Shown in pieces: positions 3,001 through 38,091 of a stretch of 64,000 bases of DNA. Numbering within the stretch: position 1 is the stretch's first letter; the number at the start of each line of letters is the position of its first letter. Origin of the DNA: a virus; IMG/VR virus record IMGVR_UViG_3300046820_001014, positions 24,420 to 88,419 of that record, one strand, 5' to 3'. The translations under genes were made by a program, and so were the position numbers. Under the pieces are notes generated by a model. That model saw only the letters and a program-made list of their open reading frames with translations, was not told where the DNA came from and searched no databases.

Positions 3001-3504
3001 TTAGCTTCTGTTAAAAGAATTAGTGATCTTAAAATTGTAGATAAAGCAGGTAACATTGTTACTACTGAAAAACAAGCTCTTGCTTATGTAGGTTTATCTA
3101 GAAGTAAGAATAAACTTATAGTATTTGATGGTGCTGGACAAGTAGGAATTAATTTTTTTAATGAAGATGAAGATGGTAATGTTCCTTCTAAAGAATCTTA
3201 TACACCTACTAAAGAAGAACTTACAAACCTAAAACCAGCATTTAATCCTTGGGGAAATATTCCACCAACAGGTAATGGAGGACCTATTATGGCAAAACTA
3301 AATAGAAGTCTATTTGGATTACCAGAACCTCAAGATGCTGGTCCTAAGCAAGTTAATGTTGATGCTGTTAATATTGTTATTGATAAAATAAAATCTAACT
3401 TTGCATTGTATAAAGATGTTCTAGGTGTTGAAAACGTAGAACAGTTAGATAACATGAATAGCTCTCAAGTAGCTACCTTAATTAAAAACTTTTGTAAGAT
3501 ATGA
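1..3504 (+). CDS. Large SLOG + SF1B (RecD/Dda-like) helicase protein, 5' end outside window
   Basis: The frame is open from base 1, so the ATG at 40 is probably internal and this is the C-terminal part of a larger protein. Two known folds are visible. The first is a DprA/SLOG-type Rossmann domain at about nt 1066-1550 (YAGIGSRQSP near its start, a late EGGTGQAVEMA loop). The second is an SF1B helicase core: P-loop GAAGTGKTT at nt 1744-1770, Walker B VVDESSML, GDEKQIP, VHRT, and C-terminal motifs HKSQGTT and YVGLSRSK. That set matches RecD2/Dda-like 5'-3' DNA helicases. The N-terminal 340 residues are unrecognised. It sits with virion genes, away from the replication genes, and its stop overlaps the ferritin start (ATGA), which suggests a large polyvalent protein that may be packaged and injected. 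That role is inference. Confidence 0.8.
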   Translation, partial: LTIRAYSRFNQSSMDINNLDLIKGGLVKMYEENKDAILKYPFGQMLKPLEPTRQYPFGRLGVDSFKKLDPRKKDDIMDSFAGMLIDPETKEFAIGLLSFIASHDNFRFLGQSAVSFMRPSIFNALNEIVKGTDSLDGVEEFFVQTDKGKVIDTQKVASSLTDDGNFDKLFKDYLSFWFSDNRNAKKLDKLTSKLLKSKGGELYIETKDIKNIPLVTFFSTEDGRVPVILEGKAGGKAYYKVIRRPKNGTSLKLYQLTNTDSANFIDSAAKATTPSPEVTAKIISMINSITTLPRLEGYIETQKTQFDALNDEIINALNAKRAALGNVTTTPTSTQPNNTNKPEFDKLPSKSATPTMTYAGIGSRQSPQDVLNLMTEAAKYLETKGYTLNTGVTFNGKEEGADGAFSKGTSKKNLFSPENQGSRTKEQTIAKEVHPNPNALSAAALKLMARNTNQVFGENLDTPVDFVLFYAKESGGIRPEGGTGQAVEMARRKGIPTINMADDNWRDQLKTVISKKTTKPSEVKPVVTQTNIPPVPTGKASFSYKNKEIATEFPLSQDQNTALGKLVDFVNAPSKDVITLEGAAGTGKTTIIGYLQKYFKDSSSFVYMAPTHAATAELAFATVKTGNNSLPATIQSSITTDKITKQPTFTVKIRRRLGINPVIVVDESSMLGEKEIKDLLIASKNNGVKVIFMGDEKQIPKVMPSAKDVKALSPAFTDFDKVSLQYVHRTSNQNILSLLSEMRNSKTFNVPRPAENTNSLQFLDNFIEFKQKFIDDLMVDPENTVMITYTNRAVKDYNTDARKAFGREGDPVVGDVITGYLGYASKQIEKKDIANSIQYTITGILNNGSAKVIQAESSRLKKLAESGIEVPHEATTIYYQLSRNDSFAFDDLTLDDYQNNNKYVSGIFRDLHNITQAFLNKQARYEDLLAAQASVSEQMRKISLGQNYIYNPKTDRMEIFDQMTHESIDSKLKVEKDIDYGHAITIHKSQGTTIGNVYFDLASVKRISDLKIVDKAGNIVTTEKQALAYVGLSRSKNKLIVFDGAGQVGINFFNEDEDGNVPSKESYTPTKEELTNLKPAFNPWGNIPPTGNGGPIMAKLNRSLFGLPEPQDAGPKQVNVDAVNIVIDKIKSNFALYKDVLGVENVEQLDNMNSSQVATLIKNFCKI

Positions 3505-3992
3505 AATTAAATAAAAAAATTATAGATCTTCTAAATTATAGAATTCAACAAGAAGAAGCATCAGCTAGAGTTTATGAACAATTTGCTTTATGGTTAGATG
3601 ATAAAGGTTTTAAAAACTTTGCAGCATTGTATTACAAGTATGCTCATGAAGAGTTGACTCATGCTAAATTTGCTAAAGATCATCTTCTTGCATTTGGTGT
3701 GCAACCGGAGTTAACAAAACTTCCTGCTCCTGATTATGAGTTTAATTCTTTAAAAGATATTCTAGAACTTACCTTAGAACATGAGCAAGAAATTACTAGG
3801 CAATGTAATGAGTTAACTAAGACTGCTGCTGCTTTAGATGATTTTCCAACTATGACTTTAGGTATGAAGTATTGTGCTGAGCAAGTAGAAGAACTTGATA
3901 AAGCTCAAACTTTTGTAGATCAAATGGAAACCTTTGGTGATTCTAAAGAAGTTATGATTACTCTTGAGCACAATGTTAAAGACATGCTATGA
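3501..3992 (+). CDS. Ferritin (non-haem, FtnA-like)
   Basis: This 163-aa protein aligns along its whole length with bacterial FtnA. All ferroxidase-centre residues are visible: E18, Y25, E51, H54, E95, Q128 and E131 (FtnA E17, Y24, E50, H53, E94, Q127, E130). Signature pieces include AHEELTHAKFAKDHL and LEHEQEITRQCNELT. Ferritins oxidise Fe(II) and store iron in a 24-subunit cage. The start overlaps the upstream helicase stop (ATGA) and its own stop overlaps the next gene (ATGA), so it is translationally coupled inside the virion/late block. Possible roles are protection from iron/oxygen radicals or a virion component; the sequence does not decide. A heme ligand of bacterioferritin type was not identified. 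Confidence 0.9.
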   Translation: MKLNKKIIDLLNYRIQQEEASARVYEQFALWLDDKGFKNFAALYYKYAHEELTHAKFAKDHLLAFGVQPELTKLPAPDYEFNSLKDILELTLEHEQEITRQCNELTKTAAALDDFPTMTLGMKYCAEQVEELDKAQTFVDQMETFGDSKEVMITLEHNVKDML

Positions 3993-6900
3993 TTAGTTGT
4001 CCAAATAAAAACTCTAAAGCTTGGAAATCTCTTGTAACTGCAAGAGGTGAGGAGATGTCTTATGTATTATGGAATGCTTATGATGGAGATGTTCCTGAAA
4101 GTGAGTATTTTGTTGAGGAAGAACCTTCTGTACCTAAGTTTAAATTAGAGAATAAACCTGTATATACCTTAGAAGAAAATCCTGAAAGGAAACAAAGATT
4201 TCTTGAACAACTTAAAGTAGGTAATGCTATCTCATTTGAGTATTGGAGTAATATTTCTAAAGAAAGAGCTAAAAGAAGAAGTATTACAGTAATGGATTAT
4301 GATCTGGATGCTGGATTTATTGTAGGATATGAGGATGGTGTTGAGAAGAAATTTTTAATTAATAATATAATTGATAGAACTAATCCTCTATCTAATAGAT
4401 TAAATAATGAAGAAGTTGTAGAGTTTACATCATCATTAGAAGTAGGTAAAGCAGTAAGTTTCTTTGATGACTTGAGTGGTAATGTTGCAGAAAGAATACT
4501 TCTTGTAGAATCTTTTGATGAAGATGGAGTTACAGGTATTGATGTAACTTCTGAAGAAAAAGTTACTATTCCTTATACTAGTATTGTACAAAGAGATACT
4601 ATTGAGAATGAGCAGAAAGTTTCTGATTATGTAAGAAAGATTAGAGGTGTAATCTCTACTCAGTTACAATATCTTAAACCTAGAATTAAAGATGCTGCTG
4701 ATCAAGATTTATATAACAGTATTCTTGAATCACAAGATGCACTTAATGATTATAAAGGTGTAGAACAATTAGAAAGCTTAATTACTTTTCTTAAGGAGAT
4801 TGATAATAACATTAAGAAGATTAAAGTCCTTATTGATAATATTGAGAATAAAGGTGGAGACATTCCATCTCAACTTAGAAGAATTGGATTACTAAAAGAT
4901 TTTATTGATGGGCATAAAGACATTGAGAAGATTCTAAATCCTCTTAAAGAGTCTAATCCTAATAGTCAAATGAATGAGGTGGTAAATAATATTATTGCTA
5001 ACATTCACTCAGCTGAAGTATATTACTTTAATACAGCTAGACCAAAGTTGGCTAAGTGGTTATATGATCATATGAGCCCTGAGTTAAATGATAACCTTAA
5101 GAAATATGGAATGGAGGTTATTACTATCTCTTCTCTTGAGAAGTTCTTAGCTAATCCTAATAATGACTTGACATGGATGGATACATTTCTTGTAGCATCT
5201 TCTAATGTTAATGATAGTGTAACTAGTTTATTCTCACTTGCTCTTAAGAGATTATATAATATGGCAAGAAAGATGAATATTGCTTATAAGACATATCTTA
5301 TGCCACTCTTTGATAGTTTTTCTAAACAAGGATATAAAGGTATGGTAGACTCTTATAGAAAAATGTTTTTCTATGAAGTTATACAAACTTCTAATGGTCC
5401 TATTGCTAAGAGAAGATGGGTTACTGAGTTTAATGATTATATCTATTATGGTAAACTAAATGAGTTTAAAAGAAAACTTACAGAATTAAATACAGCTTCA
5501 TTATCTGCAGAAAATCCTAGACAAGCTGAAGCACTTAAAAGACAAGCTGATTCTTTAAAGTTAGAAAGAGATGCTTATATTAAGAGATGTAACATTAAAC
5601 TTAACTTTAATCAAGCTAAAGAAATGATGGAAACTCTTCAAACTGAGGATCCTAATAAATTTAGAGATTTACTTAATAATAGATTTAACTTTAAATTAGC
5701 TGCAGTTACTGAGAAGAGTGTTAATGAGGATGGGTTTAAAGCTCCTGCTAACTCTCTTCTTGTAGATGGTAGATACTATGTATATACCGGTGGTATGCAA
5801 ATTCTAAATAAAGAACTATTTAGAAATACTCAATATGAGGCACTTAAGAATGATGCTACAGCATTCCCTATGTATGAGTATCTTAAGAAAGTATATGATG
5901 AGTGTGAGAAAAAACTTCCTATAAAACAAAGACTTGGAGGATATGTACCTGCACAAGGTAAGACTAGTACTAAAGAAGATATTAAAGAATTTATGTCTCT
6001 TGAGGAAAGTGCTAAGTACAGTAGTAATCTAGTAAAATTAGATGGAGATGTTTATAAAGAAATACCTTTATACTTTGAGAAACCTAGTGTTAAAGTACTT
6101 ACAGATAATGTAGATATTAATATGCTTGATGGTAATACAGACTTAATTGATGATAGTAATATTGATAATAATATGATTAAGGCAGTCCTTAATTATGCTG
6201 CACAAGCTAATATGTATAAATCATTAGATACTAGTATAGGTAGTATTACAGCATTTCTTGATACTGTTAAAACAAATGCTCCTAAGAATCCTGATGGTAG
6301 TAACATTGGTACTAATAGAAGATATGATAAATGTGTAAATCTTGCTAACCAACTTGTGTATGGTGAGAAAAAAGAAGCTCCTACGTTCTGGACAAGACTT
6401 GTAGATATTCTTGGAAAGATTACACAGTTTGTAAACTTAGGTTTTAGTCCTGCTGTTTATATCAATAACTTTATCATGGGTAATGTAGCTAATTTGTCTG
6501 AGGCTCAAGGTGGTAGAAACTTTAATAAGAAAGAATTAGCTCTTGCTAATAAGGAATTTTTTAAATTGATTCCAAACTTTATTAAAGATAAAGAGAACTC
6601 TAAGCTTTATAAGATAATTACTAGGTATGATGCTATTCAAGGAGAGTTTAATACAGAATTGGGTAAAGGATTTGGTAGTACTTGGAGTAACTTAAAAGAA
6701 GAAAGTTTCTATGCATTTACAGGTAGTAATTTGGGAGAACTTGAGATACAAGGAACTTCAATGATTGCCCTTATGATGGCTAGAGGTTTATGGAATAAGT
6801 TTGATGAGAATGGAAATCCTACTGAAGAAATAGGGGCTAGAGAAGAAGAAACTTTTATGAATGTTCTTCATGAGTTAAATAAAAGTAATCATGGTGTATA

Positions 6901-8081: not shown

Positions 8082-8647
8082 TGAGTCAGATAAAAAAAAT
8101 AACACGGGTAATCTTTTTTATCTATCTTACTTCTTGTAGGATGTTAAGAAGTGATGAGCAAAATGCTATACACGATGTTGATAGGTATCAAAGAAAACTT
8201 AATAGAATTTATGCTGAGTTTCCTAAATTTAAGAAAGATACTATTAAAGGTGAAGTAGTTATACAAGTACCTATTAGAGTAGTAGATACTGTAGTACAGT
8301 ATAAAGACTCTATTACTCAAAGAATTATCTATAAAAAGATTATAGAGAAATGTAAAGATTCTATTCTTGCTAAAGAGATTATTAAGAAACTGGACAGGTA
8401 CAAGTGTATTAAGGACAGCATTGTTGTTAGGGATAGCTTATTTAAAGCAGTTATTACTCAAGATAGTCTTGGTATCCACATCAACATAATTCCAAGGGAC
8501 ACAGTTCTGAAAGCCAAATATGCAGTTGCCTGTCCACCAGTTATTTGTAAAGATGATATGTTCTGGGAACACTCAGAGTTCTGGTTTGTAAGTGGATTAT
8601 TCTTAGTAATGGTTTTAGGAATACTAATACACTTAAAGCTTAGTTAA
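8081..8647 (+). CDS. Unimolecular spanin (u-spanin)
   Basis: This 188-aa protein begins with a basic N-terminus, a short hydrophobic run and a lipobox-like LTSC at about residue 18, and ends with one strong transmembrane helix (FWFVSGLFLVMVLGILIHL, residues about 167-185). The region between is charged with coiled-coil character. An N-terminal outer-membrane lipid anchor joined to a C-terminal inner-membrane helix is the architecture of u-spanins (phage T1 gp11), which fuse the outer and inner membranes at the end of lysis. The position between endolysin and holin supports this. No sequence homology is claimed; the call rests on topology and context. Confidence 0.7.
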   Translation: MSQIKKITRVIFFIYLTSCRMLRSDEQNAIHDVDRYQRKLNRIYAEFPKFKKDTIKGEVVIQVPIRVVDTVVQYKDSITQRIIYKKIIEKCKDSILAKEIIKKLDRYKCIKDSIVVRDSLFKAVITQDSLGIHINIIPRDTVLKAKYAVACPPVICKDDMFWEHSEFWFVSGLFLVMVLGILIHLKLS

Positions 8648-8654
8648 CGTATAA
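8648..8654 (+). promoter_or_regulatory. CGTATAA site before the holin gene
   Basis: CGTATAA ending 7 bases before the ATG at 8661. One of eight such sites found just upstream of phage genes or small RNAs. Confidence 0.45.
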
Positions 8655-8660
8655 ACAAAT

Positions 8661-8966
8661 ATGTTAGATCTAGATAAAGTATCTCTTAAACAAATGTTAA
8701 ATAATTCTCAAGGAAAGAGTTCCTTAGGATTACTTATGGCTTTGCTTTGGGGAATTACTGGAGGTCTAATGATGATTACAGCAGTTGTAAGTGCTTTCTT
8801 TGGTATGAATTTTTACTCAGAAGTATTTACTTATGGAGGATTACTAGTAGGTGCATCTGCATCCTTATTGGGAGTACGCAGATTAACTGCTGATAAACAG
8901 ATACTTACAATAGATAAACAAGAAGAAGAAAATGGCGATAACATCAACAGCAACACAATCAACTAA
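8661..8966 (+). CDS. Holin-like small membrane protein
   Basis: This 101-aa protein has two hydrophobic helices (about residues 20-46 and 52-72), small residues at the helix turns and a charged, hydrophilic C-terminal tail (KQEEENGDN). Together with the endolysin and spanin immediately upstream this fits a class II-type holin that permeabilises the inner membrane. A CGTATAA sequence lies 7 bases before the ATG, so this gene may also have its own promoter. Its last 35 bases overlap the start of the next gene in another frame. Confidence 0.65.
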   Translation: MLDLDKVSLKQMLNNSQGKSSLGLLMALLWGITGGLMMITAVVSAFFGMNFYSEVFTYGGLLVGASASLLGVRRLTADKQILTIDKQEEENGDNINSNTIN

Positions 8967-10074
8967 TAGTTACACTGTAACTTTTAATGGTACTAGTGAT
9001 CTTTATACTACACAACCTATTAATATTGTTATTAAAAGAAATGGTATTGGTATTAAAGTATTTGATAATGTAACTCAAGGTTTAAATTATTCACATACAT
9101 TTGATGAAGCTTCAACAATAAATATAACTTATTCAGTTGAGTATACTGTATATTTTGATGAAACATTATTTGATGATGACTCATATAATTTTACAGTTAA
9201 TGAATATAAACCAGTATTTGAATTACCTACAGTAACTTGTGTTGAAAAAGGACAAGTAGCTACATTTAAACCAGCTACTTTATCTTTTGGAGATCAAGAT
9301 TACTGTAAAGCAAGTCCTAATTATGAAAGTATACATTATGAGTACTTTGAATTTAATCAAAATTCTGGAGTATGGGTATCTAAAAATACTTTTTCTGTTT
9401 CTAATACTGCATTACTAACACCAATAGATGTTGATGATGTTGATTTAGATGCATTAGCATATACTTGGACACCTAATGTACTAACTATGGTTAAGTTTAT
9501 AGTTACTGTAACTAATTGTAATACTTCAGTAATACATGAAACAATTTTTCCTGTTTGTGGAGCATGGAAATTAAGAAGATTATCTTGTGGTAATTATAGA
9601 CTTTATAACTATAAAAGCTCAACTATAACATATAATATATATGATGATATGTCTGTAGGAGCTGTTCCTTTTTTAAGTAATCAACAACTAGCATCTTTTA
9701 GTTATACAGATTTAAAGTTTAATGCTGAAGGTGTATATAAAATTTCAGCTGATGGAATTTCTCAATATTTATTTAATTTTTGTGAAATTGAAGCATGTGT
9801 TCTTTCTTTACAAAAGAAGATTCTTTTAGATGATAGTTTATGTGATGCTTGTAGAATGGATAAAGCTCTTTATCAAAAAGCTCTTCGTCTTATTCCTATT
9901 TATGAAACTTGGAAAAAATTACTAGATAAAGATTGGATATATGATATGCAATACTTAACTACAGATATTGATGATGAATTAGCTAGAATATATGATGCTC
10001 AAGAGTTATATACAGAAATTAAAAAACTGTGTGAAGATTGTGGAAACTCATCAACTAAAAAATGTAACTGTTAA
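8932..10074 (+). CDS. Structural protein, probable tail/fibre component
   Basis: This 380-aa protein is unrecognised by sequence. The N-terminal two thirds is rich in Thr/Ser/Asn and alternating hydrophobic residues, as in beta-sandwich (Ig-like) tail proteins. The C-terminal 110 residues are helical and contain Cys pairs (CDAC, CEDC, KCNC) that could bind metal or form disulfides. The start ATG lies inside the holin gene (35-nt overlap). It opens a run of six structural genes ending at 16888, so an adhesin or baseplate role is inferred from position and composition. Confidence 0.55.
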   Translation: MAITSTATQSTNSYTVTFNGTSDLYTTQPINIVIKRNGIGIKVFDNVTQGLNYSHTFDEASTINITYSVEYTVYFDETLFDDDSYNFTVNEYKPVFELPTVTCVEKGQVATFKPATLSFGDQDYCKASPNYESIHYEYFEFNQNSGVWVSKNTFSVSNTALLTPIDVDDVDLDALAYTWTPNVLTMVKFIVTVTNCNTSVIHETIFPVCGAWKLRRLSCGNYRLYNYKSSTITYNIYDDMSVGAVPFLSNQQLASFSYTDLKFNAEGVYKISADGISQYLFNFCEIEACVLSLQKKILLDDSLCDACRMDKALYQKALRLIPIYETWKKLLDKDWIYDMQYLTTDIDDELARIYDAQELYTEIKKLCEDCGNSSTKKCNC

Positions 10075-28368: not shown

Positions 28369-29307
28369 TTAAATATTAATTAAATAACTATTATTATACT
28401 CCTCAAGAGTATAATTCCACTCATTTTTCTCCATATGCCACTTAATTCTTTTTAAAAGATTGTTATATTCTATCTCTCCTCTATCAATTTGAGTATCAGA
28501 AATCTTATAACAATGTCTTGTAAAGAATTGAGTATCAACTACCGGCATATAACAAGAGAAAGAATAATCTGGAAATACTGTAGATAATGCAAGTTTATAG
28601 AAAGCCATTTGTCTGTAATACTTCCAGAACTCAAAACTCTCTGGAAAGAACTGTGCTCTCTTAGATGTAGTCTTTAGATCTACAAGTACACAATACTTCT
28701 CCTTATGGTTTATAATAACTCTATCAAGTCTACTTTTACAAGGTATATCTAAGTACTCAAAGTATATCTCATACTCATTAAATATCTCACAATTACTCCA
28801 ATCTTGAAAGAGATACTTAGTACAAGCAGCATGAGATCTTAGAGCATTAACACATCCTTCTATAACTCCTTTCTGCTCTCTAGTCATAAACTGCTTACCT
28901 TGATTAAGTTCCAGTTCTGCTATATACTCATAAATATTACTTTTCTTAAGTGTATTTAAAAGAGTCTCATCTTTATAGTTATTATAATAAGATGCTAATC
29001 TTGCAGCTTTAATAAGAACTTCATCCTGAGTCTCAACAAGATGAGAATCTTTAATCTGAAAGTATTGTGTAACTACATTACACAAACTCTCATTAGGTTT
29101 AGCTACCTCTGATACAACAAACTCTTCAGGACTCTCACAATACAGATGTAGGAGGCTTCCGTTTTCTAGACTTGGGCTTGGAGCTAACTTTTGTATTGTT
29201 CCCTCCAGATACATCTGAAACAGCTTTGGACTTCCTCCTTGCTCTGGGTTTATCAGGGATAGAGTGCTGTTGGCTATCTCCCTCCTCTCGTAATAATTGG
29301 TTATCAT
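28369..29307 (-). CDS. RecB/Cas4-type PD-(D/E)XK exonuclease
   Basis: This 312-aa protein begins with the recognition segment ANSTLSLINPEQGGSPKLFQ and then LLHLYCESPEEF, the N-terminal pattern of the phage PDDEXK exonuclease group (putative exodeoxyribonuclease VIII-like). The catalytic core is CVLVDLKTTSKRAQFFP (D..(E/D)xK-like DLKTT) followed by YYRQMAFYKLAL. It would resect DNA for recombination with the SSB and Sak4-like ATPase. Its first 173 bases are read in another frame by the upstream nuclease gene, and the conserved N-terminus argues that this overlap is genuine. Confidence 0.75.
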   Translation of the reverse strand: MITNYYERREIANSTLSLINPEQGGSPKLFQMYLEGTIQKLAPSPSLENGSLLHLYCESPEEFVVSEVAKPNESLCNVVTQYFQIKDSHLVETQDEVLIKAARLASYYNNYKDETLLNTLKKSNIYEYIAELELNQGKQFMTREQKGVIEGCVNALRSHAACTKYLFQDWSNCEIFNEYEIYFEYLDIPCKSRLDRVIINHKEKYCVLVDLKTTSKRAQFFPESFEFWKYYRQMAFYKLALSTVFPDYSFSCYMPVVDTQFFTRHCYKISDTQIDRGEIEYNNLLKRIKWHMEKNEWNYTLEEYNNSYLINI

Positions 29308-29668
29308 ATATTTTTTTAATTTGTTCTAATACTTCCCTACATTGTTCTTGATTTCTAGGCATAAAGAATAAGTGGTCAGAATACTTAAATTTGAACATCT
29401 TATGCTTAATCTTAGCTTTCTCCTCAAGAAGTCCCTTTGTCTCAATAACTATCTTACTATCTGTAAGATAAAAATCAGACACATACTCTATCTTTCTAAT
29501 AGTTTTACCTTCATACTTAAAACTAGGTTGAATCTCAAAAGGTTCTTGTAGTTTTAAGCATGTAAGTAAATTATTACTTTCTAAGAGTTTGTAAAAATAC
29601 AACTCTAATCCACTATCAAAGATTAAGTTGTTATACTTAATCTTCTTAGTGGCATAATATTTCCTCAT
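29135..29668 (-). CDS. DUF1064-like PD-(D/E)XK nuclease with basic tail
   Basis: This 177-aa protein has a core (residues 1-115) that matches the DUF1064 / phage Holliday-junction-nuclease-like pattern: FDSGLELYFYKLL, FEIQPSFKYEGKTIRKIEYVSDFYLTD (the DF of the active site), then VIETKGLLEEKAKIKHKMFK (the ETKG lysine). The remaining 60 residues are Ser/Lys/Arg-rich and disordered-looking (RARRKSK, KSRKRKPP). This tail is encoded entirely within the 173-nt overlap with the exonuclease gene. It may bind DNA. Whether it is selected or tolerated is unknown. Confidence 0.65.
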   Translation of the reverse strand: MRKYYATKKIKYNNLIFDSGLELYFYKLLESNNLLTCLKLQEPFEIQPSFKYEGKTIRKIEYVSDFYLTDSKIVIETKGLLEEKAKIKHKMFKFKYSDHLFFMPRNQEQCREVLEQIKKIYDNQLLREEGDSQQHSIPDKPRARRKSKAVSDVSGGNNTKVSSKPKSRKRKPPTSVL

Positions 29669-29679
29669 AATATTTTATA

Positions 29680-30270
29680 CTAAAATGGTAGCTCAACATG
29701 ATTTATAAACTTAGTTCTTTCCTTAACTAAGTTCTCAACAAATCCAGCTAATAATTCTTCTTTAAAGCCTTTTACATCTTTAATACTATCAAACTCATAT
29801 ACTTTATGAAAGATATCATAAAGATTAGTAAATTCCTCATGTATAACCAACTCAGGTGTATAATCCGGATTTCTACCTTCTACTCTACCTCCTATACTAG
29901 TATAAAATCTTTCTACATGCTCAGAATATGTATTATAAAATGCTTTAGTTACATGTATAACATTTTTTGTATAATAACCAATATCTACTTTCTTTTTACA
30001 CAAAAGAAATACTATGTTACCATCTAAATCATAAATACTATCATAGAATACATAATATGGAAAGAAAGACTTTAAGTACTTTCTATTATGAGTGCTTTTT
30101 GTATTACAAAGTAATTTTGCAAAACAATCAAATAGAGTAGTTCTAGTCTTCTTAATTGAGAATGGTTCATAATTAAAAAGATTTACTTTCCACTTATTTA
30201 TGTGAGGTATTTTAGTGGAAGCATAATACTGTCTTACTAAAGCTCTTAATTCATCTGTTGTTACTGCCAT
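29680..30270 (-). CDS. Unknown fifth member of the ubiquitin-like cassette (196 aa)
   Basis: No family was recognised. The N-terminus is helical (TDELRALVRQYYAS). The middle is beta-rich and aromatic with Cys residues (DCFAKLLCN, LLCKKKVDIGYY), and the C-terminus is helical. It overlaps the E1-like gene by 10 bases and so is translated with the cassette. In known PRTRC-type and related loci an extra small protein of unclear role also accompanies E1/JAB. It could be an adaptor, substrate or ligase-like partner. All functional statements are inference from position. Confidence 0.5.
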   Translation of the reverse strand: MAVTTDELRALVRQYYASTKIPHINKWKVNLFNYEPFSIKKTRTTLFDCFAKLLCNTKSTHNRKYLKSFFPYYVFYDSIYDLDGNIVFLLCKKKVDIGYYTKNVIHVTKAFYNTYSEHVERFYTSIGGRVEGRNPDYTPELVIHEEFTNLYDIFHKVYEFDSIKDVKGFKEELLAGFVENLVKERTKFINHVELPF

Positions 30271-30932
30271 GTCAAACCATTAAAAGTATGAAAGAAAGGT
30301 ACTTCTCTAATCTCTTCACCAATATCTTCAATATGTTTCTGATTAGCAAGATAATTACATAAGAGTGCTACAGCTTGAGTTGCTACCATAGCTGCATAAT
30401 GTCCTGTCTGCTTGTAGCTACAAGGTAAATCAGGTATCTCATCATCTCTTCTCAAAGAATCAAGATACATCTGTACATGTTCTTCCTTATGTACACAGAA
30501 TATTTGAAACTCTTCTGCTTGCAATCTGGTATCTATAAAGATTTTTCTATCTTCTGTCTTACACCACTCCTCAAACATAAGTTTTCTAGCTTCCATATTG
30601 TCAAACATAGCAAAGCAGTAAGGAGTTACCTCACAACCTTCTTCATATTTACCAAGATCATCTAAGATACCATTAGAATATTCTTTAATCATAACAGCAA
30701 CTGCTGCAGCTTTAGGTTTACCTAAATCATCATACCTAAAGAATTGACAATCTAAATTTACATCCTCTACAGTATCCATCTCATAAGCAATTAAATGATG
30801 CCTAAGTCTGGATAGAAAGAAAGCTACATAAGCACCTACACCACCAAGTCCCCCTAGAATAATTTCTAGGGGTTTTTCTGTTACAAATGGTGCTGCTGAG
30901 AATCTACTAAATTCTAAACGATTATACCTCAT
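30261..30932 (-). CDS. E1/ThiF-like adenylating enzyme
   Basis: This 223-aa Rossmann-fold protein of the ThiF/MoeB/E1 family has the nucleotide loop LGGLGGVGAYVAFFLSRL (residues about 26-43), YEMDTVEDVNLDCQFF (the conserved D..(E/N)..N.(N/D)RQ-like strand) and CFAMFDNMEARK (the D..D/N...R strand). The candidate catalytic Cys is Cys171 in LPCSYKQTGHYAA. Such enzymes activate the C-terminus of a ubiquitin-like protein as an acyl-adenylate. It lies directly downstream of the JAB gene (11-nt overlap). Confidence 0.85.
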   Translation of the reverse strand: MRYNRLEFSRFSAAPFVTEKPLEIILGGLGGVGAYVAFFLSRLRHHLIAYEMDTVEDVNLDCQFFRYDDLGKPKAAAVAVMIKEYSNGILDDLGKYEEGCEVTPYCFAMFDNMEARKLMFEEWCKTEDRKIFIDTRLQAEEFQIFCVHKEEHVQMYLDSLRRDDEIPDLPCSYKQTGHYAAMVATQAVALLCNYLANQKHIEDIGEEIREVPFFHTFNGLTWQ

Positions 30933-31950
30933 TGCTTAAAAGATATTCTTGCCACTCCTTATCAGTCATTCTGGAAATATCTTTAACAGGTTTACTACTT
31001 CCAAAGGTAACTTCCTCAAAATCATCTTTAAGATCATCTAGAAGAGAATAGATAGCACCTAAACCATCAACAATAAGAGTCTTATGTTTATGTTTACTAT
31101 CAACATCATCAATAAAGTTAATTAATTGAAAGAGAGAAGCTTTAGTAGCAATATCTTTACCTTGCTCTACATGATCTATGCAAAGTTTTTCTACCTGATC
31201 TAGGTATACCTCAACATCTTCTGGAGTTCTAATCTCATCCAGAGCTTCTTTTAAAGACCTAAACTTAAAATTAATAGTACCAATAGAGTACTTAGTAATA
31301 GGAGAAACTTTATAGTGGGGAGTATAAAAAGGTAAATGAGTTTGGGCATTAACAACTTTAGTAGCTTCTTTAGCTTTAAAGATTGTATCAAACTCTTCTT
31401 GAAAATCACTACCATTTGCACCAGAGATACTTACAGGTAAAGAAAACTCCATAATAATTTTACCATCAGTAATATCTTTAGATGTATAGTTACTATCCAT
31501 ACCTCTAACACCTACAGTTTGAATAATCATATCAGTAGCAATCCTAGCATTAAAATCTAATTTATTATTAACAATAACAGATAGATGAAAAGGAAAGTTA
31601 CTTATATTATCATATAGATGTTTATCATCTACACCTGATGGGCTTACACCCATATTATGATGAGAGTGAATACTGAAAAACATTACAGGCCACTTCTCTG
31701 AGTTATCCTCAAAATAATCAGCTAATGTTGATCCCCAATCATATTCTGTGTAACCAGAAGTACCTACATCTTTAAGTATCAAATCTATTACATGTAGTTG
31801 TAGAGTATCATCATAGATATCTCCCTCAACCTTCATGACACCTACTCCACTCCACTCTATATTAGAGCACCTGGAATTGAAATACTTGATTTTCTCCAAC
31901 ACTCTGTTCTCCAGAGTTATTGGATTCTTTAGATTTTTTTTTATAATCAT
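30922..31950 (-). CDS. JAB/JAMM metallopeptidase (deubiquitinase-like)
   Basis: This 342-aa protein has a complete JAMM zinc site: Glu32 in EWSGVGVM, and H95-S-H97, then seven residues, S105, and D108 in HSHHNMGVSPSGVD. JAMM proteins cleave isopeptide bonds or process ubiquitin-like precursors. The JAB domain occupies roughly residues 10-150. The remaining C-terminal 190 residues are helical, acidic and unrecognised. The start lies inside the E2-like gene (89-nt overlap); no later Met is usable because Glu32 would be lost. The operon order E2-JAB-E1 supports a dedicated pathway. Confidence 0.88.
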   Translation of the reverse strand: MIIKKNLKNPITLENRVLEKIKYFNSRCSNIEWSGVGVMKVEGDIYDDTLQLHVIDLILKDVGTSGYTEYDWGSTLADYFEDNSEKWPVMFFSIHSHHNMGVSPSGVDDKHLYDNISNFPFHLSVIVNNKLDFNARIATDMIIQTVGVRGMDSNYTSKDITDGKIIMEFSLPVSISGANGSDFQEEFDTIFKAKEATKVVNAQTHLPFYTPHYKVSPITKYSIGTINFKFRSLKEALDEIRTPEDVEVYLDQVEKLCIDHVEQGKDIATKASLFQLINFIDDVDSKHKHKTLIVDGLGAIYSLLDDLKDDFEEVTFGSSKPVKDISRMTDKEWQEYLLSNEV

Positions 31951-32992
31951 TGTAAATTTTATTTATTAAGTCTTCTTTAGCATAATTATTCATAAAATAC
32001 TGCAACCAATCATCAATATCAGTGTAAAGTACTCTTGAGTTTTTATATATTGTAGTATGTTTTTTATGTTTAATGTGTCTACAATCAAACATTACATGAC
32101 TTGAGAGTTTCTCTAATTTATCTTGTTTAATAGTATTATCCTCAGAAAACAAATGAAAATAATCTTTCTTAAGATCAGAACTATTAAGGTTAAGTTTAAC
32201 TTCATTCTTAAGTACAGAAATAGAGATATACTTATGAATATTATTTAATAGTTCTTCATTATTAAAGATAATACTCTGAAATTCTGATTTTGATAAATTT
32301 TTACCTTTATTTAACTTATCTAAAGCATAATAATGATCACCATGTTCTGTCTTTTGAGAAACAGTTCTATAGAAATTTACCCAAAATATATCAGCATCAT
32401 TCTCATCAAATGTATCATGATCATAATGCAAATTAGTAAGAGACATTGATAGTGGAGAAGATCCCATACAAAAAGAACTAAAATCACTACTTAAGTGAGG
32501 ATGTATAAATTTAGGATTATTAATATCTACAGTAGTTCTAAAACCTCTTAGAGAAACAGTATCTATATAAAAATACATATCTCTAAGCTCAATAGGATTT
32601 CTACCAGTATTAACTTCTTGTAACATTATTTTTGGAAAATGAAATCCTAGATAATAATTTCCACTAACAGTAATTAATCCTATTTTACAAACACTCTCAT
32701 CATATAACTCAGAAGCTTTAAGCTTTCTATATTTCTGTATAAGACTAAGTTGAGTGTGATCTAGAGCATTTTTATTAAAGTTACTTAAGTTTGTAAAAAA
32801 ACTAGTATCTCTACCATTAATTTTCTCATTAAGACTTGTAAAACCTAATGAGTAATACTCATAAATCCTCCACTTATTATATTGTTTGGTATACTCCTCA
32901 ACATCAATATCTAAACTGAAAATAGGTCTAAGAGCTCGGGGCCTCCTAAGAAGCCCCTTAATCTCTTTAAACTTATTACTTCTGAGTTGCAT
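31862..32992 (-). CDS. E2-like conjugating protein (HPH...C type)
   Basis: This 376-aa protein has a central beta-rich segment (YFYIDTVSLRGFRTTVD) followed by NPKFIHPHLSSDFSSFCMG: H164-P-H166 and Cys175. That arrangement (strands, P-x-x-HPH, a short flap, then a Cys) is the bacterial E2-fold pattern known from PRTRC-type and other bacterial ubiquitin-like loci. The N- and C-terminal regions are unrecognised; the C-terminus is polar and lies in the overlap with the JAB gene. It would accept the Ubl on Cys175 from the E1. Function is inferred from motif plus operon. No RING-like partner was seen. Confidence 0.65.
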   Translation of the reverse strand: MQLRSNKFKEIKGLLRRPRALRPIFSLDIDVEEYTKQYNKWRIYEYYSLGFTSLNEKINGRDTSFFTNLSNFNKNALDHTQLSLIQKYRKLKASELYDESVCKIGLITVSGNYYLGFHFPKIMLQEVNTGRNPIELRDMYFYIDTVSLRGFRTTVDINNPKFIHPHLSSDFSSFCMGSSPLSMSLTNLHYDHDTFDENDADIFWVNFYRTVSQKTEHGDHYYALDKLNKGKNLSKSEFQSIIFNNEELLNNIHKYISISVLKNEVKLNLNSSDLKKDYFHLFSEDNTIKQDKLEKLSSHVMFDCRHIKHKKHTTIYKNSRVLYTDIDDWLQYFMNNYAKEDLINKIYNDYKKKSKESNNSGEQSVGENQVFQFQVL

Positions 32993-33509
32993 ATTTAGCC
33001 TCAGCTAAAACTCTCTCATTGAATTGTGTAGCATTAGAAGTATTTCTAATACCTAGTGCATACTCAACCTCAAATAGTCTTGCCTCAAGAACAGAACTAT
33101 CAAATTGTCCTGTTGTTCTCCTTTGTAGTGTTTGCAAAACATCCTCAAGTTTTGCCTTCATTTGAGCTAGAGAATCATGAGTATAATTACCAATAATATC
33201 AATGATTACCTCATCATCATTGGTTACAGCATCAAGTCTGTACTGCTTAAGAGCAGCTCTAACTTCATGATACTCAGCCATTGCAGCCTTCATATCCTTA
33301 GGAGAGATAAATACTTTAAGGTTACCTTCTGGAAGAGCAGCATCAGCATGCTCTAGAGAGTAAAGAGCCTTACCAACAGTAACTGTCTTGTTACTGAAAT
33401 CTACTGCAGGAAGAGCAGCTACTAGTTGAGAGAAGGTAGATACACCAGCTTCTACCTCAAATTGATTAACCTGTGAATTGTTTGTTGTTACAACAGTTAC
33501 TTTACGCAT
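32976..33509 (-). CDS. Ubiquitin-like (beta-grasp) protein with C-terminal extension
   Basis: This 177-aa protein has residues 1-72 that read as a beta-grasp domain: strand KVTVVT, strand NQFEVEAG, helix TFSQLVAAL, strand TVTVGKALYSL, then DAALPEGNLKVFISPKD (the D..LP.G..(V/L)F final strand typical of Ubl and phage beta-grasp proteins). The next 105 residues form helices of unknown role. There is no C-terminal Gly-Gly; if activated, either JAB processing exposes a new terminus or another acceptor is used. The stop overlaps the E2-like start by 17 bases. It is the first gene of the cassette. Confidence 0.65.
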   Translation of the reverse strand: MRKVTVVTTNNSQVNQFEVEAGVSTFSQLVAALPAVDFSNKTVTVGKALYSLEHADAALPEGNLKVFISPKDMKAAMAEYHEVRAALKQYRLDAVTNDDEVIIDIIGNYTHDSLAQMKAKLEDVLQTLQRRTTGQFDSSVLEARLFEVEYALGIRNTSNATQFNERVLAEAKYATQK

Positions 33510-33520
33510 AACTTTAAGTT

Positions 33521-34477
33521 TTATAAAATTGAATTTAACAAATCCTCTATATATTCATGCCCGAGGATCTTATAGGCATCAGAGAAATCTTTAATCCCCA
33601 TTTCTCTGTATTCTTTAGGGAATAATAATACTGGAATATTGAATTTCTTTCTTATAAGTATAGCAGCTTTTTTACCAGCATTATCATTGTCTGCAAGATA
33701 CAAACAATTATACTTATTTACAAGCCATGCTGGAGGGAGAACACTCTCCCCCTGCATAGCTACAGCTTGTATACCAAATAATGATAAACATACTACATCC
33801 TTATAACTCTTAGTTATTACTAATAGTTTAGGATCATTAATATATTCTATACCTTGTATACTTTTACTATTACTTATAAATCTATACTGTTTTCTCTCAG
33901 GAAAATAAGCTTTAACAGATGTGTCTGAGAATATGTATAAGAAACACATTTCCTCACCTCTAATGCAATTGACAAAGTTTCCTTCATTGTTTTTTACATA
34001 TAAATGCTTGCATGAGTGTATATTGAATTTCTGTAAAACCTCTAAGCCTATACCATATTGTTGCCAGTATTCTAACTCCTTATTAGAGAACTCTTTAAAG
34101 TTAACTCTTATTTCTGCACTTTTCTTCTTATCCACAAAGCTCAATCTTGCAATCTGTGTTTTATTATTTTTGTTATTTAATAAATGATAAGGAATAGTGC
34201 TCTTTAAAGTATTATAAATATCCAACAGTGCTTCTTGGTAACTAAGTTTCTTTAGATACATAACAAAAGATATTGCGTCTCCACAAAACTCTCCTGGTCT
34301 GTTATCATAATAACGTAGTATGTTACCATAATATTGAAATGCACATGTTGGAGACTTATCTCTCCTCAAAGGACTTATAAAGTTACCTTTAACTACTGGA
34401 ACGCCATAAGCTTCAAATATACTTTCCTGTGAAAAGGTTTTATAAACATAGTCCCTACTTAAATTAGAGACATACAT
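33521..34477 (-). CDS. DnaG-like primase
   Basis: This 318-aa protein has an N-terminal region with SPLRRDKSPTCAFQYYGN and FCGDAISFVMYLKKLSYQEAL, the CHC2-type zinc-binding/primase domain pattern. It then has a Toprim-like region: LVITKSYKDVVCLSLFGIQAVAMQGE (the Glu of the usual EG.D is replaced, as in several Bacteroidota-phage primases) and LADNDNAGKKAA (DxD). It would synthesise RNA primers together with the DnaB-like helicase at 38131. It lies next to SSB, 11 bases before the Ubl gene. Confidence 0.82.
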   Translation of the reverse strand: MYVSNLSRDYVYKTFSQESIFEAYGVPVVKGNFISPLRRDKSPTCAFQYYGNILRYYDNRPGEFCGDAISFVMYLKKLSYQEALLDIYNTLKSTIPYHLLNNKNNKTQIARLSFVDKKKSAEIRVNFKEFSNKELEYWQQYGIGLEVLQKFNIHSCKHLYVKNNEGNFVNCIRGEEMCFLYIFSDTSVKAYFPERKQYRFISNSKSIQGIEYINDPKLLVITKSYKDVVCLSLFGIQAVAMQGESVLPPAWLVNKYNCLYLADNDNAGKKAAILIRKKFNIPVLLFPKEYREMGIKDFSDAYKILGHEYIEDLLNSIL

Positions 34478-34480
34478 TTA

Positions 34481-35065
34481 TTAAAATGGCAAGTCGTCTG
34501 CTCCAGTAGGAGCACTAGTAAAGTCAGCACTTACTTCAGGCTTAACTACTACATCAGTAGGAGTAACATTTAGCTTATCACTATTAGGAGCAGCAATGTA
34601 ACCACTCTTTGCAAATTCCAGATATCCAGATTTGCCATAGACAAGCTTAACATCAGCAGTCTTATCACTACCTACTGCAGTCACAAAGTTCTTGCAGAAC
34701 TCATTGTAGTTTTTACCCTCTACTACTACATCACCAATAACAGCAGTCAATACTGTTTTGGTATCTCTAATAAAGCCCATCATCTCAAGTGCATTAGAAA
34801 CTTCATCAGTCATTTCTACACCTTTCTGACCTTTAACACCATTAAACTCAAAGTTAAATGGACAAGCTCTACCCATTGGGTTACCAGCTTGTTTAGGTTC
34901 CCACATAATTTTCTTAATGTTGCTATCAACAATTCTAAGAGACAAGACAGGATCACCAGAACCATCTTTTCTAAGAGGTTCAAAAATAGCTTCTACAGGT
35001 ACATTAACATTGATACCTGGTTTTACTGAAGCAGCAGGGGCTTTTACACTATTAGTATTAAACAT
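34481..35065 (-). CDS. ssb: Single-stranded DNA-binding protein (SSB-like)
   Basis: This 194-aa protein ends in DDLPF, the acidic-aromatic C-terminal tip that SSB proteins use to recruit partners. The central 110 residues form a beta-rich region compatible with an OB fold, though no OB-fold residue set is diagnostic by eye. Its position just upstream of the primase and near the ATPase and helicase fits. The last 40 residues are a flexible linker (Pro/Val/Ser/Asp). The SSB call rests on the tail, size and context. Confidence 0.6.
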   Translation of the reverse strand: MFNTNSVKAPAASVKPGINVNVPVEAIFEPLRKDGSGDPVLSLRIVDSNIKKIMWEPKQAGNPMGRACPFNFEFNGVKGQKGVEMTDEVSNALEMMGFIRDTKTVLTAVIGDVVVEGKNYNEFCKNFVTAVGSDKTADVKLVYGKSGYLEFAKSGYIAAPNSDKLNVTPTDVVVKPEVSADFTSAPTGADDLPF

Positions 35066-36218: not shown

Positions 36219-36848
36219 TTATTCTTTATATTTAAAAATCCATTTGTTTTCATAATTACTTTTAACTCTTTTTTCTAATCTTGGTTTAATTTTATTTAAA
36301 CTGATATTTAATTTTAAAGAACATTCTTTAATAGAGTCAAACTCATAAATAATATTATCTTCTAGATCTGTAACAATAATAGCTCTTTTATTATTTTCAG
36401 CCATTACCTTACATCTTTCAGATATAATATTTATAAATTCAATATTTTCTTTCAAAGATTTAGATTGAGCTTTTCTATGAGATTCTGGTTTATTAGCTAA
36501 ATATACCTCTAGCTTTTTTCTTCTATCTGCTCCCCAAGTTACTCCTAAAGTATTACCTGCTGTTTTGCAAATATCATAACCAAAATTATCATCATAAGAC
36601 TTCCATAAATCTTTATAATATTGTTCTCTTATTAAACAATCCTCTGAGTTGCAAAACTCTACTATTTCAAACTTAAAATTACTTTCACCATATTTGTTAA
36701 AAGCATTTTGTAAATGAGTACTAGTATGTTTGTTTAATCTTAATCTATAAAGATGTTCCCACAATCTTCTTTTAATAGTCCTTGTTGAACTTCCAACATA
36801 AACTTTACCATCTAGCAAATTTAATATTTTATAAACTCCTGACAACAT
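36219..36848 (-). CDS. GIY-YIG homing endonuclease
   Basis: This 209-aa protein opens with GVYKILNLLDGKVYVGSSTRTIKRR: the GIY/YIG signature appears as GVYKI...VYVGSS followed by the catalytic Arg. The Glu and Asn regions follow (EQYYKDLWKSYDD). The C-terminal part (VTDLEDNIIYEFDSIKECSLKLNISLNKI) is a DNA-binding intron-encoded-nuclease repeat. It is inserted between the ATPase gene and a small gene and abuts the ATPase start. CGTATAA at 36882-36888 lies about 34 bases before its ATG. Confidence 0.9.
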   Translation of the reverse strand: MLSGVYKILNLLDGKVYVGSSTRTIKRRLWEHLYRLRLNKHTSTHLQNAFNKYGESNFKFEIVEFCNSEDCLIREQYYKDLWKSYDDNFGYDICKTAGNTLGVTWGADRRKKLEVYLANKPESHRKAQSKSLKENIEFINIISERCKVMAENNKRAIIVTDLEDNIIYEFDSIKECSLKLNISLNKIKPRLEKRVKSNYENKWIFKYKE

Positions 36849-37170: not shown

Positions 37171-37427
37171 AATGAAGCTAATAAATCTTCTTTAGTTTTA
37201 AATAAAGCAATTGGTAAAACTGTGACTTGTTGTTGGCCTACTATTTGTACACAATATTCTATTTTATTACCCCAATCACATAAATTATTAGATCTACATA
37301 TTCTAACTCCATTAATATCACCAACATTAGGTTTATTATTATACATAAACCAAACTCTATCATCTATATTATATTTTGTTTCTATTGTCATAAGTTGTTG
37401 TAAATTACTTGCATTATTGTTTTTCAT
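37167..37427 (-). CDS. Hypothetical protein (86 aa)
   Basis: A beta-rich small protein containing DRVWFMYNNKPNVGDINGVRI, a pattern typical of small phage SH3/KOW-like accessory domains. Two starts are possible: ATG 37427 (overlapping the GIY-YIG gene by 14 bases) or ATG 37391, which begins at MTIETKYN and keeps the whole domain. The second looks older, and the 12 extra residues may be due to the insertion. Confidence 0.5.
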   Translation of the reverse strand: MKNNNASNLQQLMTIETKYNIDDRVWFMYNNKPNVGDINGVRICRSNNLCDWGNKIEYCVQIVGQQQVTVLPIALFKTKEDLLASL

Positions 37428-38091
37428 AATACCATTTAAAATTTTTACACGTTTGTCTGTTATTTACATTCTTACAACATCTCGAAATATTAGTTGAATC
37501 TATGTTAAAAAATCTAGCTGCTTCTCTGGTGCTTTCCCATTCTTTAATAAAGTTACCTTCTAAATCATATTGATAAACTTTTTTACTCTTTACTTCTGCT
37601 AATCTTTGCATAGTAAATTCAGAAGGTTTATTTCCTTTATTAGCTTTAGATATTTTATCCTTAGTTTCTTGAGATTTACGTCTACCAGATTTTATAAAAC
37701 CACAAGCAATTAATTCTTCTGTAGTTCTTGTTTTTCTAGGAGAAGTAATATGTGACATACTAATTTTCTTCTTTGTTTCCTCTGACACTTTTAAACCACT
37801 GTTATTCTCAGCTATTTTTCTAATGTTATATTGAGGATTCAAAGAGTCTAAATAATATTGTTCTCTCTCAATTAATATTTCTTTGCTACACTCTTCAATT
37901 ATCTCAAAAATAAAACTTTCTTCTTTATGTTTATTCCAAGATACTTGAATATGTTTATTCCGATGTTTGTTATTTCTTAACAAATGTTTATGAAGTGTTA
38001 CTCTTTTTCTATAATTAAAAGCACTTCCTATGTAAATTTTATTATTTACAGTATTTGTTATTTTATAAATAACAGTAATATTTAAATTCAT
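37414..38091 (-). CDS. GIY-YIG homing endonuclease
   Basis: This 225-aa protein has ITVIYKITNTVNNKIYIGSAFNYRKR (GIY-YIG and catalytic Arg), EREQYYLDSLNPQYNIRKIAENNSG, then NUMOD-type repeats with SEETKKKIS...ATKDKISKANKG-like segments and a C-terminal DLEGNFIKEWESTREAARFFNIDSTNISRCC helix-turn-helix. This is a classic segF-like mobile nuclease architecture. It is inserted between the DnaB-like helicase and a small gene. CGTATAA at 38110-38116 is 19 bases before the ATG. Confidence 0.92.
   Translation of the reverse strand: MNLNITVIYKITNTVNNKIYIGSAFNYRKRVTLHKHLLRNNKHRNKHIQVSWNKHKEESFIFEIIEECSKEILIEREQYYLDSLNPQYNIRKIAENNSGLKVSEETKKKISMSHITSPRKTRTTEELIACGFIKSGRRKSQETKDKISKANKGNKPSEFTMQRLAEVKSKKVYQYDLEGNFIKEWESTREAARFFNIDSTNISRCCKNVNNRQTCKNFKWYYEKQ

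Follow-up and report, generated by a model that had tools for sequence, protein, structure and literature searches.

A Putative Ubiquitin-Like Conjugation Cassette Related to PRTRC Systems beside the Replication Genes of crAss-Like Phages

Gene Content of the Cassette

The window analyzed here, a 64,000-nucleotide (nt) stretch of the 88.4-kb virus record IMGVR_UViG_3300046820_001014, comes from a crAss-like bacterial virus and carries at positions 29680–33509 a cassette of five overlapping minus-strand open reading frames (ORFs). In the direction of transcription these encode a ubiquitin-like protein (Ubl), an E2-like protein, a JAMM/JAB metallopeptidase, an E1-like adenylating enzyme, and a partner protein, X; neighboring ORFs share 17, 89, 11, and 10 nt. 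A first-pass annotation made from the DNA letters alone had described a phage-encoded Ubl-E2-JAB-E1 cassette in a replication operon. All five ORFs and their overlaps lie where it placed them, and the cassette itself is supported by gene order and by profile homology of the E1 and JAB components, the E2 being a more provisional assignment. Residue numbers below count Met as 1.

The Ubl (177 amino acids [aa], 32976–33509) combines a beta-grasp domain with a helical C-terminal extension. Its AlphaFold2 model (mean predicted local distance difference test [pLDDT] score of 80) has a beta-beta-alpha-beta-beta N-terminus followed by helices, and Foldseek matched it in the PDB mostly to ubiquitin-like folds (MoaD, TtuB, DIX, UBX, ubiquitin, SUMO, and a bacterial Ubl-deubiquitinase complex), with a best E value of 2.6e-3 and a best target TM-score of 0.67 among the matches listed. 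These predictions support the beta-grasp fold that had been proposed for the N-terminus. A sequence-profile search of the PDB with the Ubl alignment gave no match, and Pfam scans of the Ubl members gave no consistent family and no Prok_Ub match.

Behind the last strand, glycine occupies residue 76 in 56 of the 61 aligned Ubls (Ser-Gly 55 times, His-Gly once), and the chain then continues for another 53 to 217 residues. The invariance of this glycine outside the window clade (56/56, at a family mean column identity of 19%), its placement like that of the ubiquitin C-terminus and the extension after it form the pattern expected of a precursor processed by a JAMM peptidase. The resulting modifier unit, residues 1–76 (33282–33509), would end ...KKIKSG in most relatives and ...SPKDMKAA in the window clade, as the five Ubls without Gly76 are those of the window and its close relatives, in which Ala-Ala stands instead. 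The absence of a terminal Gly-Gly noted in the first-pass annotation is thus true of the window but is a peculiarity of its clade. In one phage Ubl the tail matches the ribosomal L7/L12 C-terminal domain (Pfam 3.1e-10).

The E2-like protein (376 aa, 31862–32992) carries the segment H164-P-H166...C175-x-G, with H164 to C175 encoded at 32468–32503. C175, H166, G177, and G218 are found in 61/61 aligned phage relatives and H164 in 59/61; in the window clade the motif takes the form HPH-x8-C-x-G, and most other relatives have HSH...C-x-G-x-G-P. An H164-x-H166 pair ahead of an invariant, catalytic-type cysteine corresponds to the HPN-like feature of UBC E2s. The predicted structure comprises a helix (79–92), four strands (103–152), the HPH/C175 segment and two further helices (181–190 and 197–212), with a core pLDDT of ∼84–96; this succession, alpha-beta-beta-beta-beta-(HxH-C)-alpha-alpha, is the order of elements of the UBC fold. 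Among viral models, Foldseek matched the protein chiefly to crAss-like relatives and to some unnamed phage proteins. A sequence-profile search of the PDB with its alignment returned no match, and Pfam scans showed no consistent family, with a Prok-E2 match in 0/61 members.

The JAMM/JAB metallopeptidase (342 aa, 30922–31950) has a complete zinc site in the window (E32, H95, H97, S105, and D108). Among relatives E32 is conserved in 59/59 ungapped rows, H97, S105, and D108 in 61/61, and H95 in 59. The HSH...S..D motif spanning H95 to D108 (31627–31668) is also where group I introns reside in some relatives. The JAB gene is interrupted in seven loci (L027, L049, L065, L024, L063, L068, and L070), in each case either at the HSH motif or no more than a few codons away; Rfam group I introns were identified in three of the split genes, and in L049, L065, and L027 exon 1 ends ...ATCCAT or ...GTGCAT, the last codon encoding the first zinc-site histidine. 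L068 and L070 contain ORFs that, judged by eye, resemble LAGLIDADG-type endonucleases. Homing introns prefer unchangeable sites in essential genes, and their presence at these codons fits a strongly constrained JAMM site.

The E1/ThiF-like adenylating enzyme (223 aa, 30261–30932) alone among the cassette members clearly matches a Pfam family (ThiF, 8.1e-8; also phrog_15670, 3.2e-41). It contains a GGLGGVG loop and the candidate catalytic Cys171, and C171, D134, K74, D111, R116, and W123 are conserved in 70/70 relatives, most of which are only ∼30–37% identical to the window E1. The motif residues read from the window in the E1, JAMM, and E2-like proteins are therefore all present and conserved in phage relatives, and the invariance of the catalytic residues across a non-redundant set argues that the motifs are not chance. 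Many relatives bear an N-terminal E1 extension of 100–200 residues (e.g., PhiCrAss001 gp76, at 8542–9693 of locus L123), which the window E1 lacks. The last gene, encoding X (196 aa, 29680–30270), is fast evolving.

Distribution and Conservation of Gene Order

A tblastn search found the E1 in 78 of 50,697 phage records, belonging to Flavobacterium phages, Bacteroides crAss-like phages, and a few others, and an IMG/VR profile search with E1 gave 78 loci. Hidden Markov models of all five cassette proteins were run on every locus, and 70 loci were non-redundant at 90% E1 identity. Ubl, E2-like, JAB, and E1 genes are all held by 63 of the 70 loci, in the same order in 63/63, and most of the loci without all four stop at a contig edge. 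An ORF of at least 90 aa, its start usually overlapping or adjoining, follows E1 in 69/70 loci, the position of X in the window. In PhiCrAss001 the cassette comprises gp79 (Ubl), gp78 (E2-like), gp77 (JAB), gp76 (E1), and gp75 (X); Flavobacterium phages also bear it, Fpv3 among them, and DAC15 and DAC17 have at least the E1. The 89-nt overlap of the E2-like and JAB genes in the window (31862–31950), read on the same strand in different frames, is not isolated: overlaps of at least 30 nt recur at this junction in 56 of 63 loci (median 68 nt), which makes it a conserved region of dual coding.

A cellular source was sought in 84,980 species genomes by a pattern-limited search, which found phage-type E1 on three short contigs of metagenome-assembled genomes only. 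In many crAss-like and Flavobacterium phage records the E1 has been deposited as a "thiamine biosynthesis protein," a label that has kept the cassette hidden. Searches of the open-access literature found no paper treating it as a ubiquitin-like system; an earlier mention in subscription journals is possible.

Relationship to PRTRC and Other Ubiquitin-Like Systems

The Ubl-E2-JAB-E1 order is common to the phage cassette and PRTRC, the type 6d operon of Iyer et al. (2006), which comprises a Ubl, an alpha-helical protein, an E2-like protein, a JAB, and an E1, and which has been predicted to be a conjugation system (PMC1779556). On plasmids, the PRTRC genes are ordered C (Ubl)-F-B (E2)-A (JAB)-ThiF, and the best full-length plasmid matches of a phage E1 are PRTRC ThiF proteins. 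Profile comparison with hhalign relates the E1 to PRTRC ThiF (P 5.3e-17) and the JAB to PRTRC-A (probability 91.6, P 8.4e-7), with HSH...FFS.TD common to both peptidases. Each system also includes a small Ubl with a conserved C-terminal glycine and resides on a mobile element, close to genes for replication or maintenance.

The two also differ. The phage E2-like protein is larger and has an upstream HxH, the phage Ubl has a long C-terminal extension, and the phage cassette has its own partner X, which profile comparison shows to be unrelated to PRTRC-F. The window Ubl does not fit the Prok_Ub/PRTRC-C type: it gave no Prok_Ub match and no significant one to PRTRC-C, and it has Ala-Ala where relatives have Ser-Gly. 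A ParB-related gene and the PRTRC proteins E and F were not recognized among ten proteins scanned, and the window E1 scores 22.3 bits against NCBIfam PRTRC_ThiF, for which the cut-off is 144.75. In a tree of 50 E1 domains all 28 crAss-type phage E1s form one clade (97/98), sister to a Xanthomonas jumbo-phage E1 (97/90), and the PRTRC clade stands apart (99/96, minus one long-branched PRTRC row). Because the E1 and JAB are homologous and the order is the same, yet the phage E1s form a separate clade, the cassette is by sequence a relative of PRTRC and not a member of it; most likely it is a new variant of PRTRC-type conjugation systems. Of the two systems named in the first-pass annotation, the cassette is related to PRTRC, short of membership, and is not assigned to Bil.

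BilABCD, the bacterial ISG15-like antiviral system, likewise encodes all four functions (Ubl, E2, JAB, and E1) within a single operon. Its BilA contains a pair of Ubl domains, BilB is marked by a C-E-H-H motif, and BilD couples an inactive adenylation domain to an active one (PMC11354881), whereas the cassette has one Ubl domain, no C-E-H-H downstream motif, and a single-domain E1 of 223 aa. A PADLOC scan gave no Bil match for the cassette, and identity with BilABCD was rejected on these grounds. Type II cyclic-oligonucleotide-based antiphage signaling systems (CBASS) resemble the cassette in the E1/E2 chemistry and JAB peptidase of Cap2/Cap3; however, Cap2 combines its E2 and E1 parts in a single polypeptide and is accompanied by a nucleotidyltransferase, and this identity too was rejected, since the cassette has separate E1 and E2-like genes and lacks the CBASS partners. 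The TAPI/TAPK proteins of lambda-type phages pair a Ubl that has a C-terminal extension after its glycine with a JAB peptidase (PMC1779556), but do so in a tail-assembly context without E1 or E2.

Two other phages have related arrangements. Bacillus phage vB_BauM_KLEB27-3 (OM634661) encodes at 718–1425 a polyubiquitin-like protein in which four nearly identical Prok_Ub repeats (Pfam 5e-27) stand head to tail, each of them closing with ...GVKG ahead of the next Met; genes for a Prok-E2_D-like protein, a JAB, and a ThiF protein follow. The Xanthomonas jumbo phage PhiXhv-15 (PV764602) encodes at 2736–6615 a 141-aa protein ending ...AKASGG, a possible Ubl with a true C-terminal Gly-Gly, along with an 892-aa protein having HPH...CLG and Cys-rich ends and the E1 that is sister to the crAss-type E1s; the JAB profile found no JAB among the genes tested.

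A Predicted Conjugation and Deconjugation Cascade

The cassette is probably a phage-owned cascade for ubiquitin-like conjugation and deconjugation that is made with the replication (middle) genes. We predict that the E1-like enzyme would adenylate the 76-residue beta-grasp unit at its C-terminal end and load it onto Cys171, and that Cys175 of the E2-like protein would then receive the modifier and transfer it to amino groups of its protein targets. Release of the modifier from its C-terminal extension, and its removal from targets, would fall to the JAMM peptidase, and X would most likely serve as a target adaptor (E3-like) or as a preferred substrate. In the window clade the modifier would end ...KAA rather than ...KSG.

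Several observations weigh against this prediction. X has no recognizable domain in Pfam library scans, in which all X members were included and no consistent family emerged. Foldseek of the E2-like model against the PDB returned nothing UBC-like, so that of the E2 fold originally proposed only the UBC order of elements is borne out. The anticipated homology to PRTRC-B and PRTRC-C was likewise nonsignificant by hhalign, in contrast to that of the E1 and JAB: the E2-like protein gave P 0.074, with its best alignment on the C-x-G site, and the Ubl P 0.7. As off-diagonal pairs of these profiles (29 members each for PRTRC-B and PRTRC-C) score P 0.07 to 0.9, neither value counts as evidence.

It could accordingly be argued that the 376-aa protein is an unrelated Cys/His enzyme or scaffold, with the Ubl passed from E1 directly to targets or acting noncovalently. 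The missing UBC and Prok-E2 matches and the nonsignificant PRTRC-B score would agree with this. We consider it unlikely, given that the protein has the predicted order of elements described above and fills the same operon slot as PRTRC-B, and that its HxH...C-x-G parallels both the C-x-G site of PRTRC-B and the jumbo-phage HPH...C-L-G found beside an E1 and a possible Ubl. Because Foldseek gave no UBC structure, we infer E2 identity from the active-site pattern, predicted topology, and gene position.

A further point against the cascade concerns the window clade itself. With the conserved Ser-Gly lost, and with an unbroken helix (73–96 in the model) beginning almost directly after strand 5, processing and conjugation of the Ubl are less certain here than in relatives. 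The Ubl of this clade might now be a permanently two-domain protein that does not undergo conjugation, the enzymes acting on something else, and Ala-Ala does replace Ser-Gly in all aligned clade members. Such a change seems quite improbable, however, because the E1, E2-like, and JAMM sites are intact and because conservation within the clade ends exactly at residue 76 (mean identity of 97.1% for residues 1–76 vs. 59.3% for residues 77–177), suggesting that the modifier unit still ends there.

The Foldseek matches to MoaD and TtuB raise another possibility, namely that the Ubl carries sulfur as a thiocarboxylate, in the manner of MoaD, ThiS, and TtuB, for the thiolation of nucleotides, tRNA, or DNA, being adenylated by the E1 and matured by the JAMM peptidase; E1-like enzymes and a terminal glycine serve such pathways. 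We regard a sulfur carrier as very improbable. Among the cassette genes and scanned neighbors, library scans recognized neither a sulfurtransferase nor a rhodanese or thiolase; the cassette also includes an E2-like protein whose cysteine is invariant, and the nearest relative, PRTRC, has been predicted to conjugate (PMC1779556).

Linkage to Replication Genes and Possible Targets

The terminase and portal of the record match phage families, and a terminase search matched 158 phage records, chiefly of crAss-like, Bacteroides, and Flavobacterium phages. In the window the cassette is preceded by a DNA primase gene (33521–34477, minus strand; phrog_12622, 6.2e-34) and followed by an endonuclease/Holliday-junction-resolvase-like gene (29135–29668, minus strand; DUF1064, 3.3e-18; phrog_190, 1.8e-20) and a PD-(D/E)XK exonuclease VIII-like gene (28369–29307, minus strand; phrog_412, 1.4e-24). 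Of the replication setting first described, the primase and nucleases were thus identified, whereas the putative single-stranded DNA-binding protein (34481–35065) had no family match in library scans, its sole such trait being a DDLPF-type C-terminus. Two GIY-YIG-type homing-endonuclease-like ORFs, recognized by sequence only, lie near the replication genes on the minus strand (36219–36848 and 37414–38091). Across the locus set, wherever the flank is long enough, a primase lies upstream of the cassette; nearly all loci have an exonuclease downstream, and many have a uracil-DNA glycosylase nearby. In PhiCrAss001 the middle genes as a class (replication, recombination, and nucleotide metabolism), rather than gp75–gp79 gene by gene, begin at 10–30 min, as host transcription declines (PMC8375218).

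Since linkage of the cassette to primase and repair nucleases is invariable, the likeliest targets are, tentatively, phage replisome proteins or host proteins met by them. Rates of change within the window clade bear on the same question. Mean identity is 88.1% for E1, 56.3% for the E2-like protein, and 51.8% for X, and in JAB the catalytic part (90.5%) contrasts with residues 151–320 (45.9%), so that the chemistry has likely been kept constant while the probably target-facing parts (the E2-like protein, X, and JAB 151–320) change fast.

Fast change of this kind is expected of conflict surfaces as well as of host-specific target matching. The main competing explanation is an anti-defence device, in which the Ubl, E1, and JAMM compete against a host ubiquitin-like or CBASS-type defence or the cassette tags defence proteins; the slower change of E1 and the Ubl core would accord with it. 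Anti-defence genes are common in phages and movable. The cassette, by contrast, is fixed beside the primase wherever enough flank is available, which favors a replication-phase function over an accessory role, and an inhibitor would not need the full gene set with its E1, E2-like, and JAMM sites all intact. We therefore think anti-defence improbable; constant chemistry, fast target-facing parts, and middle-gene timing together favor replication-phase tagging.

The presence of the cassette in at least 60 distinct relatives beside replication genes suggests that phages tag proteins during infection. On balance we lean toward the view that in many crAss-like phages, among them PhiCrAss001, a reversible ubiquitin-like protein modification of the phage's own belongs to the core of genome replication, with a history separate from that of the bacterial defence versions. 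The crAss-like phages are among the most abundant human gut viruses. If the interpretation is true, lytic phages would own a complete ubiquitin-like conjugation and deconjugation pathway tied to DNA replication, one that can be tested in cultured phages (PhiCrAss001 gp75–gp79 and Flavobacterium phage Fpv3) and that would bear on the role of the widespread PRTRC cassettes.

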